Shown here: positions 25,500 through 28,400 of the stretch, one piece after another
Layout: every line of letters starts with the position of its first letter
Position numbering within the stretch: the stretch's first letter is position 1
NCBI RefSeq assembly: GCF_013267835.1
Contig: NZ_CP053939.1
Span: 1-64,000 of the forward strand
Source: Neisseria mucosa
Lineage (GTDB): Bacteria > Pseudomonadota > Gammaproteobacteria > Burkholderiales > Neisseriaceae
DNA: 64,000 bases
Direction of reading: 5' to 3'
Made by a program: the position numbers and the translations under genes
The notes under the pieces: model-generated
Seen by the model: only the letters and a program-made list of their open reading frames with translations
What the model was told of the DNA's origin: nothing
Databases searched by the model: none

Positions 25500-28400
25500 A
25501 TGAATAAAGTCTTTAAAGTCATTTGGAACCACGCGACCCAGACATGGACCGCGGTTTCCGAGATCAGCCATGCACACGGCAAAAAATCCGCTTCTGACAA
25601 GCGTAAAGCCGTAGCTGCTGCAGTGGTTGCAGCAGGTGCTTTGATGGCATCTAGCGGAGCAGAGGCCGATGTAAGATTGGGAGGTAGCGCAGTAAACATC
25701 ACTCCTGATGGCACTTACAACGGTTCTAACAGAAACGTTGGTGTCAACTCTGTTGTAGTGGGTTATCAAAATACTGCCAGCAGTCAAGATGGCACTATCG
25801 CTTACGGTGCTAACAATACTGCGACTGCAAACGCAGCATTGGCAGTAGGTAATAACAATATCGCAACCGGCGGTGCATCGACTGCAATGGGTGTAAGCTC
25901 TGTTGCAAGTGGTGAAGCTTCTGTTGCAATCGGTAATGTAGCCCAAGCAACTCAAATTCGTGCGACTGCAGTAGGTAACCGTGCAACTGCTACTCAAGAC
26001 TCCGCAAGTGCATTCGGTAACCGTGCAAATGCTGGTGCACAATTTGCAACAGCTATTGGTGATAACTCCAATGCAAATGCTGCTGCAGTTGCTGTAGGTA
26101 CGCATGCAAACGCCGAAAAACAAGATTCTATCGCTATTGGTAATAACGCTCATGGTGCTTGGACCAATACTATTGCTGTCGGTAAAGATACTGTAGCAAG
26201 TAAAGACCATGCGATGGCAATGGGTACCAGCTCAAATGCGTCAGGTGTTCAAGCTGTCGGCGTTGGTTCATATACAAAAGCAGAAGGTAATCTGACAGTT
26301 GCAGTTGGTCCATATGCGCAAGCCAATAAAGAAGCTGCAGTTGCTGTAGGTTCTAACGCTACTGCTGCTGAGTCTAACTCTATTGCTGTGGGTCAAACTG
26401 CCACTGCGTCTAACAATAACTCCATTGCTGTCGGTACTAAAACAGTTTCTAGAGGCGATAACGCAATTGGTATCGGTGCTTATGCTGAATCAACTGCTAA
26501 CCGTGGTACCGCTATCGGCGTATTGTCTCAAGCTAATGGCACAGGCTCATTTGCTGGTGGTGCATCCGCTCAAGCAACAGGTGAAAATTCTGTAGCTATT
26601 GGCGGTGCGATGGATGGTACTCTGGGTAATAAAGCAGGTACTGCTGCTAAAGCAATCGGTAACAACTCTATCGCTTTGGGTACTCAATCTAAAGCTGCTG
26701 GCAATAACTCTATCGCTCAAGGTAACGGTGCAACTGCTAAGCAAGCTGCTGACGTTGCCGTAGGTCATGCTGCTACAGCTGACGGTACTTCTACTGGCGC
26801 TGATGGCGACGGCGTAGTAAATAATGCCGGTTCGGCAATGGCAATCGGTACAGAAGCTCAAGCAACCGGTATCGTAGCAACAGCCATCGGTGAGCGCTCT
26901 AAAGCTCTGGCAACCGGCGACAAAGGTGAAAAAGGTGATACCGGCGCAACTGGCGCAACTGGCGCAACCGGCGACAAAGGTGAAAAAGGTGACACCGGCG
27001 CAACTGGCGCAACCGGCGACAAAGGTGAAAAAGGTGACACCGGCGCAACTGGCGCAACCGGCGACAAAGGTGAAAAAGGTGACACCGGCGCAACTGGCGC
27101 AACCGGCGACAAAGGTGAAAAAGGTGACACCGGCGCAACTGGCGCAACCGGCGACAAAGGTGAAAAAGGTGACACCGGCGCAACTGGCGCAACCGGCGAC
27201 AAAGGTGAAAAAGGTGATACCGGCGCAACTGGCGCAACCGGCGACAAAGGTGAAAAAGGTGATACCGGCGCAACTGGCGCAACCGGCGACAAAGGTGAAA
27301 AAGGTGATACCGGCGCAACTGGCGCAACCGGCGACAAAGGTGAAAAAGGTGATACCGGCGCAACTGGCGCAACCGGCGACAAAGGTGAAAAAGGTGATAC
27401 CGGCGCTACTGGCGCAACCGGCGACAAAGGTGAAAAAGGTGATACCGGCGCTACTGGCGCAACCGGCGACAAAGGTGAAAAAGGTGATACCGGCGCTACT
27501 GGCGCAACCGGCGACAAAGGTGAAAAAGGTGATACCGGCGCAACTGGCGCAACCGGCGACAAAGGTGAAAAAGGTGAACCGGCGCAACTGGCGCAACCGG
27601 CGACAAAGGTGAAAAAGGTGACACCGGCGCAACTGGCGCAACCGGCGACAAAGGTGAAAAAGGTGACACCGGCGCAACTGGCGCAACCGGCGACAAAGGT
27701 GAAAAAGGTGACACCGGCGCAACTGGCGCAACCGGCGACAAAGGTGAAAAAGGTGACACCGGCGCAACTGGCGCAACCGGCGACAAAGGTGAAAAAGGTG
27801 ATACCGGCGCAACTGGCGCAACTGGCGCAACCGGCGACAAAGGTGAAAAAGGTGACACCGGCGCTAAAGGTGATACTGGTGAAAAAGGTGGCAGCATCAC
27901 AGGTGAAGTTGTAGATAATGGTGACGGTACCCATACAATCACTATTACTGATCTTGAGACCGGTTCAGTCACTACTACTATCGTTAAAGATGGTAAAGAC
28001 GGTGTAGATGGTAAGAACGCTGAAGCCGACGTTAAAGACAACGGCGACGGTACCCACACTGTAACCATCAAAGACGGTAACGGTAACACCACTACTACCA
28101 TCATTAAAGACGGTGCAACTGGTGCCAAAGGTGATACCGGCGCAACTGGTGCAACCGGTGCAGATGGTAAGAACGCTGAAGCCGACGTTAAAGACAACGG
28201 TAACGGCACTCATACTGTAACCATCAAAGACGGTAACGGTAACACCACTACTACCATCGTTAAAGACGGTGCAACTGGTGCCAAAGGTGATACCGGCGCA
28301 ACTGGTGCAACCGGTGCCGACGGTAAGAACGCTGAAGCTGACGTTAAAGACAACGGCGACGGTACTCATACTGTAACCATCAAAGACGGTAACGGTAACA

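Follow-up and report, generated by a model that had tools for sequence, protein, structure and literature searches.

Judged by its domains, the adhesin locus in a stretch of Neisseria mucosa DNA of 64,000 nucleotides (contig NZ_CP053939.1, positions 1 to 64,000, here called the window) is one for a type Vc protein, that is, a trimeric autotransporter adhesin (TAA), with a spacer composed of collagen-like Gly-X-Y triplets and of units of the collagen-flanked surface repeat (CFSR). The assembly contains this locus twice; the copy in the window conflicts with the other, and the gene is broken in both. Taken as a whole, the observations are quite probably best explained by a type Vc adhesin with a triple-helix and CFSR spacer whose copy in the window was mis-assembled; the positions of its parts are collected in Table 1.

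Table 1. Parts of the adhesin copy in the window, numbered from the first nucleotide of the window
Feature	Position	Strand	Evidence
ESPR (extended signal peptide of type V secretion), start of the head frame	25500..25643	+	PF13018 residues 1-48, E 1.4e-14
Signal and YadA-type head repeats	25500..26915	+	PF05658, 8 stretches, E 2.3e-42
45-base tandem array, about 20.6 copies, encoding 15-residue units	26910..27846	+	TRF, 97% matches; unit list
Gly-X-Y triplets, 73 full, in the same frame as the head	26916..27572	+	unit list, frame translation
Sole 44-base unit; head frame and anchor frame separate here	27558..27601	+	unit list
Gly-X-Y triplets in the anchor frame, 34-35	27581..27895	+	translation; PF01391 E 1.2e-45 for the entire frame
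CFSR (PF19079 / TIGR04203), 22 units with short Gly-X-Y linkers	27878..30916	+	PF19079 E 3.2e-266, TIGR04203 E 1.4e-232, 22 stretches each
YadA-like membrane anchor	31346..31528	+	PF03895 E 5e-17; 9.9e-18 in the genome search

The head frame also has a match to Collagen (PF01391, E 3.7e-36), and its ESPR, head and Collagen matches all lie above the Pfam cut-offs. Its head stretch is identical (100%) to one at 2207804 on the same contig and shares 94% and 64% identity with those of two genomes of the genus, G035 and G014; the second copy and these two genomes have a longer head region than the window. Beyond the collagen array, CFSR units make up most of the remaining stalk. Modelled as one chain, the unit is predicted to hold three beta strands (residues 8-13, 18-24 and 30-36; mean pLDDT 81.5, pTM 0.54). 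The matches of the CFSR stretch to filamin-C among solved structures are weak (best E 1.3e-4) and are taken as composition matches; in the Pfam scan of the frames, filamin, BiPBP_C and cupredoxin each account for 0 stretches on their own. At its C-terminal end the window adhesin carries the YadA anchor instead of an LPXTG cell-wall anchor as in PclA, and the Pfam scan lists no YadA_stalk match in the window's own anchor frame.

The 15-residue unit named in the preliminary description is borne out by the 45-base array, in which the spacing between neighbouring units is 45 bases in 17/20 cases, 54 bases in 2/20 and 44 bases in 1/20, the last being the unit that starts at 27558. This unit splits the window copy over two frames. 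The head frame (25500-27914, 804 aa) passes beyond it into a non-collagen reading and a stop codon at 27912-27914, while the anchor frame opens within the array after a stop at 27575-27577, reads its first whole triplet at 27581 and contains the 34-35 triplets, the 22 CFSR units and the anchor before its own stop at 31529-31531, with 1316 codons staying open downstream of the break. The 108 uninterrupted triplets described previously are approximately the sum of those in the two frames, of which the head frame holds 73, and the window copy yields neither the single chain nor the stalk of about 90 nm that were proposed with them, since its chain is split and conflicts with the second assembled copy. 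Nevertheless, the collagen-like block is real: from the glycine frequency of the head, the chance of 73 consecutive Gly-X-Y triplets is about 2e-64, PF01391 scores above its cut-off, and the longest uninterrupted runs reach 132 triplets in G014 and 300 in a further genome, G036. These two genomes also possess what is absent from both copies in the N. mucosa assembly, namely one open frame that spans head and anchor.

The relatives come from a genus sample of 46 genomes in which G000 is the window's own. Five of them share the locus next to dus (G000, G014, G035, G036 and G037); the dus genes of the four relatives are 97-98% identical to that of the window, and purH lies on the other side of the adhesin in 3/3 relatives fetched (G014, G035 and, as a part of purH, G036). 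In the window, the interval between purH and the adhesin also holds a SUKH-1 (SMI1/KNR4, PF09346) protein at 23844-24359, a member of a family whose proteins are often toxin immunity proteins. A search for Gly-X-Y triplets joined to a YadA anchor across Neisseria genomes, as proposed earlier, finds unbroken frames at this locus in 2/5 genomes. G014 has one open frame of about 2579 aa, 2578 as translated, with ESPR, head, collagen and anchor, triplet runs of 22, 132 and 66, and 24 CFSR stretches; in G036 a single open frame, 1610 codons long, holds ESPR, collagen and anchor, a head stretch 67% like the window's, and its 300 triplets without interruption, CFSR with its Gly-X-Y linkers being nearly absent (a single match, below the cut-off). 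The idea of a YadA-type adhesin with a largely collagen-like stalk is upheld by these genomes. In G035 (L038, about 5496) a 1-base indel within 3-4 consecutive G disrupts the frame in the head, 95 triplets lying in the second frame, and the gene of G037 is cut by contig ends, with 129 triplets on one side and the anchor on the other.

When the C-terminal 299 residues are scanned alone, the anchor and a short YadA_stalk stretch before it appear in 4/4 relatives. Scans of whole frames leave the anchor unlisted for G014 and both head repeats and anchor unlisted for G036, which we put down to the filters of HMMER acting on long repetitive frames. The earlier suggestion that collagen takes the place of the coiled coil is thus only partly right: the stalk is largely Gly-X-Y, but, as its domains indicate, the coiled coil is not fully replaced in the relatives because a short YadA_stalk precedes the anchor in all four. 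Elsewhere in the genus, in 20/41 other genomes, the roughly 14 kb flanking dus on one side contains no coiled-coil TAA that would occupy the same locus, and within the same span a search by pattern returns no purH match, anchor frame or ESPR frame. It is possible that the adhesin has been lost in some strains; G035 is also frame-broken.

Lys-Gly-Glu/Asp steps stabilise collagen triple helices, in which the rise is 0.286 nm per residue. Such steps are abundant in the longest runs, numbering 30 in 74 triplets in the window (the 74th crosses the frame break), 74 in 132 in G014, 48 in 95 in G035, 69 in 129 in G037 and 70 in 300 in G036, and proline amounts to 0-2% of these same runs, in keeping with the charged (K/E/D), proline-poor bacterial collagen that had been described. 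If triple-helical, the runs would measure 82 nm in G035, 113 nm in G014 and 257 nm in G036. From the tip, the order of parts would be a YadA-type beta-roll head, a neck-like stretch, the long, low-proline and charge-rich Gly-X-Y region, the CFSR beta repeats with short Gly-X-Y linkers between them, then, in the relatives, a short coiled stretch, and finally the YadA anchor. We infer a trimer whose three chains would exit through the barrel of the anchor and would be kept in register by head and anchor together with the neck, while the Gly-X-Y stretches wind into a triple helix stabilised by the Lys-Gly-Glu/Asp steps. Collagen segments punctuated by small beta units would then make a rod, a long spacer that presumably serves adhesion by placing the head at a distance of about 80-260 nm from the cell, as measured on the relatives.

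It is unlikely, in our estimate, that the Gly-X-Y stretches are instead a flexible disordered linker, or mainly repetitive decoy epitopes, which form no triple helix at all. The scarcity of proline is what one would expect of such a linker, and disorder has been argued for another Gram-negative collagen-like family (in the accessible part of PMC10224339), but glycine is kept in every third place over 73 to 300 triplets with many of the stabilising charged steps, and hydroxyproline-free bacterial collagens do fold into triple helices with a peak at 220 nm in circular dichroism, according to the available portion of PMC8968730. As triple helices, the proline-poor runs might melt near body temperature. 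They would also be long when folded: G036 has 300 triplets and G014 has 132, and no run exceeds 46 in the other 359 proteins fetched, which were picked for their similarity and are no survey. If the triple helix is correct, the TAA pathway is able to export collagen and assemble it at the outer membrane, with trimer-forming parts at both ends, and the adhesin offers a natural system for studying hydroxyproline-free collagen.

The question of the assembly arises from the two ends of the genome, which is a single contig of 2,224,757 bases. Its last 42,458 bases (2182300-2224757, about 42.4 kb) repeat the window from 35 to about 41200, the last 1 kb or so being a separate piece, when the repeat is mapped from matching pieces of more than 800 bases only. 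We read this as the un-trimmed overlap of a circular chromosome; through this overlap of about 42 kb, the genes in the first 41 kb or so of the window are duplicated in the assembly. In its single best alignment to the contig end, window 35-26919 shows 1 mismatch and 45 gaps, all at 286-14646; the window copy accounts for 41 of the gaps, each of 1-2 bases, and the end copy for 4, and genes in this part of the window may look falsely frame-broken. From 14647 to 26913, over the 12.3 kb adjoining the array, the copies are identical, and they diverge at 26914. To the right of the array and as far as 38965, the listed differences are confined to gaps of the end copy at 28729-28887; from 38966 on it has many gaps.

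Past the point of divergence, the end copy has about 950 extra bases, made up of additional head repeats, a neck-like stretch without a match in Pfam and five GPKGDT repeats, before its array begins. That array counts 28 units compared with 21 in the window copy; the window array opens with the 54-base unit type, which in the end copy is confined to the vicinity of the 3' end, and the end copy likewise contains a single 44-base unit, at a different array position and missing a different base than the window's. The direct passage from head to triplets that was reported earlier stands for the window as assembled, but not for the end copy, G014 and G035, all of which have more than 200 further residues between the window's junction point and the first triplet. 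Both this junction and the count of 108 triplets are probably artefacts of assembly. We conclude that the two frames of the window copy and its fusion of head to collagen most likely arose when a long tandem array close to the end of the contig was assembled wrongly. Against this counts the exact agreement of the copies over 12.3 kb beside the array, because of which the error rate there must be low, and it is possible that the frame break is true or that two alleles of the array were present in the culture.

Were the break real, the gene would be a pseudogene or would be switched off by the loss of one base in the array, and its product would be a head that ends in a collagen tail and lacks the anchor. 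Each copy does carry one 44-base unit, and G035 is likewise broken by a 1-base indel; yet a single chromosome would have to hold two such units at different places and missing different bases, and the frame stays open for those 1316 codons past the break. A homopolymer of 7 or more is the usual tract for switching, and the gene is free of tracts of at least 7 in the window, G014, G035 and G036, which also leads us to reject homopolymer phase switching; the sole one in the end-copy stretch (offset 7303) lies, by coordinate reckoning, beyond the stop of the adhesin. A real break is, on balance, rather improbable. Slightly less probable again is that both copies are true alleles in the culture, generated by an array that grows and shrinks as its 45-base units recombine, one such event being a deletion that joined head to array: the differing make-up of the arrays (21 and 28 units with differing strings of unit types), the range of longest runs from 95 to 300 triplets between relatives and a short near-repeat at the fusion point would fit, but each copy lies at an end of the one contig, the weakest place of an assembly, and each has a stretch with gaps of its own, the window copy with its 41 gaps in the first 14.6 kb and the other copy from 38966 on. 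Users of this assembly should be warned that the adhesin is represented twice, differently, and broken each time.

A second giant TAA, of the coiled-coil type, occupies window 34167-47019 as two overlapping frames (34167-40421 and 40339-47019). A match to G035 near this TAA falls, in G035, within an open frame of 4134 codons, and the split may likewise be an assembly fault in repeats. The window is also rich in the uptake-sequence core, with 86 occurrences where 0.06 would be expected, as befits a Neisseria. None lies within the adhesin gene; one is found upstream at 24894, and an inverted pair stands just past the adhesin stop (31539 and 31557). Since these cores flank the adhesin, the locus could be exchanged by transformation.

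In the genus sample, a Collagen match at E <= 0.001 is present in 14/46 genomes and lies above the cut-off in 12/46. Apart from the five genomes with the locus, nine have such a match, of which seven were fetched (G028 and G043 were left out). By their ends, the proteins of G017, G018, G023, G030 and G033 are autotransporter-like, with Gly-X-Y runs, and those of G004 and G016 are not; among the former, the CFSR unit is above the cut-off only in G030. G018 (L169, 2393-13854) has an ESPR-bearing TAA frame with a proline-richer collagen block (GDKGQPGDKGPD) that is broken into frames inside the repeats. CFSR itself exceeds its cut-off in 5/46 genus genomes (G000, G014, G030, G035 and G037), in 5/83 genomes of the family, a set that includes the same 46, and in 1/398 genomes of the phylum, namely that of the window; one further phylum genome has a match that falls short of the cut-off. 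Within the Pseudomonadota sampled, the module is rare.

A database search with the CFSR stretch of G014 returns 1960 proteins at E <= 0.001. Among the best 120 of these, 30 are of the TAA type, single proteins of 1572-1751 aa that unite ESPR and head with Collagen, CFSR and the YadA anchor, and 90 are without ESPR and anchor, the named ones being Gram-positive (Streptococcus with PclA, Aerococcus, Hutsoniella and Macrococcoides). The neck stretch adds 5 further TAA-type proteins among the 120 matches listed, with one or two CFSR units each by our own model. In none of these 35 adhesins, each of which joins ESPR or head to Collagen, CFSR and YadA anchor, does a run go beyond 15 triplets (30/30 and 5/5, among the matches listed), and the very long runs therefore rest on the five genomes of this locus. 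With the anchor stretch as query, 7/120 listed proteins, mostly from Neisseria, join Collagen to a YadA anchor and are devoid of CFSR, their longest runs being 7-10 triplets (three at most 7, the others 8-10). A set of 78 named loci, screened only for Gly-X-Y runs of at least 8 in anchor-ended frames, gave 4 (4/78): Haemophilus seminalis with 13 triplets, Rodentibacter mrazii and Mesocricetibacter intestinalis with 10 each and Comamonas testosteroni with 9. In the first two (L064, 1-1305, and L074, 1-3102), Collagen, CFSR and YadA anchor are all above their cut-offs in one frame, so that among Pasteurellaceae, too, the three domains occur together and the combination is not confined to Neisseria.

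How old the sharing of CFSR between phyla may be can be gauged from the units. When 55 Neisseria units are compared with 250/284 units of the 90 anchor-less proteins, the best matches have a median identity of 68% and reach 76% at the highest. A FastTree of 60/104 TAA-type units and 60/284 other units, made with the Pasteurellaceae units of L064 and L074 left out and from units of about 40 residues, which give weak trees, needs 2 label changes, in comparison with a mean of 40.3 and a smallest value of 31 in 200 shuffles. A recent cross-phylum transfer is accordingly not supported, and because the TAA-type and the other units separate on the tree, the sharing does not look recent, within the limits of what such short units can show.

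We speculate, with distinctly less than even confidence, that collagen triple helix and CFSR beta units together form a modular spacer that exists on both sides of the Gram divide, held by an LPXTG anchor in proteins of the streptococcal PclA type and by a YadA anchor in this Neisseria clade and some Pasteurellaceae. One or a few old transfers would account for this distribution, and in Neisseria the arrays would have grown to 95-300 triplets, setting the distance of the head to roughly 80-260 nm in a manner alterable by recombination.

Classical TAAs of the YadA and UpaG type consist of ESPR, head, anchor and a coiled-coil stalk. The adhesin described here differs from them in its long collagen and CFSR stalk, and its neighbour at 34167-47019 is of the classical type. 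Other Neisseria TAAs with Gly-X-Y (e.g. those of N. leonii and N. lisongii) also unite Collagen and YadA anchor in one protein, with only short runs. The TAA frames of Haemophilus seminalis and Rodentibacter mrazii come closer, in that they have Collagen, CFSR and YadA anchor as in the Neisseria adhesin, but their runs are of only the 13 and 10 triplets found in the screen, in frames that both begin at the end of the stored sequence, the part covered lying downstream of any head and ESPR.

The combination had been called uncommon in the preliminary description, which is fair, except that TAAs with collagen repeats are already known from the VtaA proteins of Haemophilus (Glaesserella) parasuis, which, in the accessible text of PMC6755704, have YadA-like head repeats and central collagen-like repeats. 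The likeness to the window adhesin, which shares TAA type, YadA-like head and collagen repeats, is judged here by architecture. CFSR repeats go unmentioned in that portion of the article, unlike in the window adhesin, and VtaA2 has 1225 aa compared with the roughly 2579 aa of the G014 adhesin. VtaA2 deprived of its collagen domains binds collagen more weakly when studied in E. coli (same portion of PMC6755704), which by analogy suggests the binding of host collagen as a second role for the Neisseria protein. In the literature searched, which is thin on subscription papers, neither titles nor the beginnings of abstracts among the papers listed describe this Neisseria protein, the phrase "collagen-flanked surface repeat" was not found, and we did not see a description of head, long collagen, CFSR and YadA anchor combined.

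The union of Gly-X-Y with CFSR, on the other hand, is known in proteins of the PclA type. PclA, a pneumococcal collagen-like LPXTG adhesin, and other CFSR proteins combine Gly-X-Y with PF19079 units like the window adhesin, from which PclA is set apart by its cell-wall anchor and by having no YadA head. It mediates adherence in vitro, and the number of its repeats varies between strains, as stated in the available part of PMC9276737. The CFSR link between PclA and the Neisseria adhesin makes the idea of a stalk shared by Gram-positive and Gram-negative mucosal bacteria a testable one.
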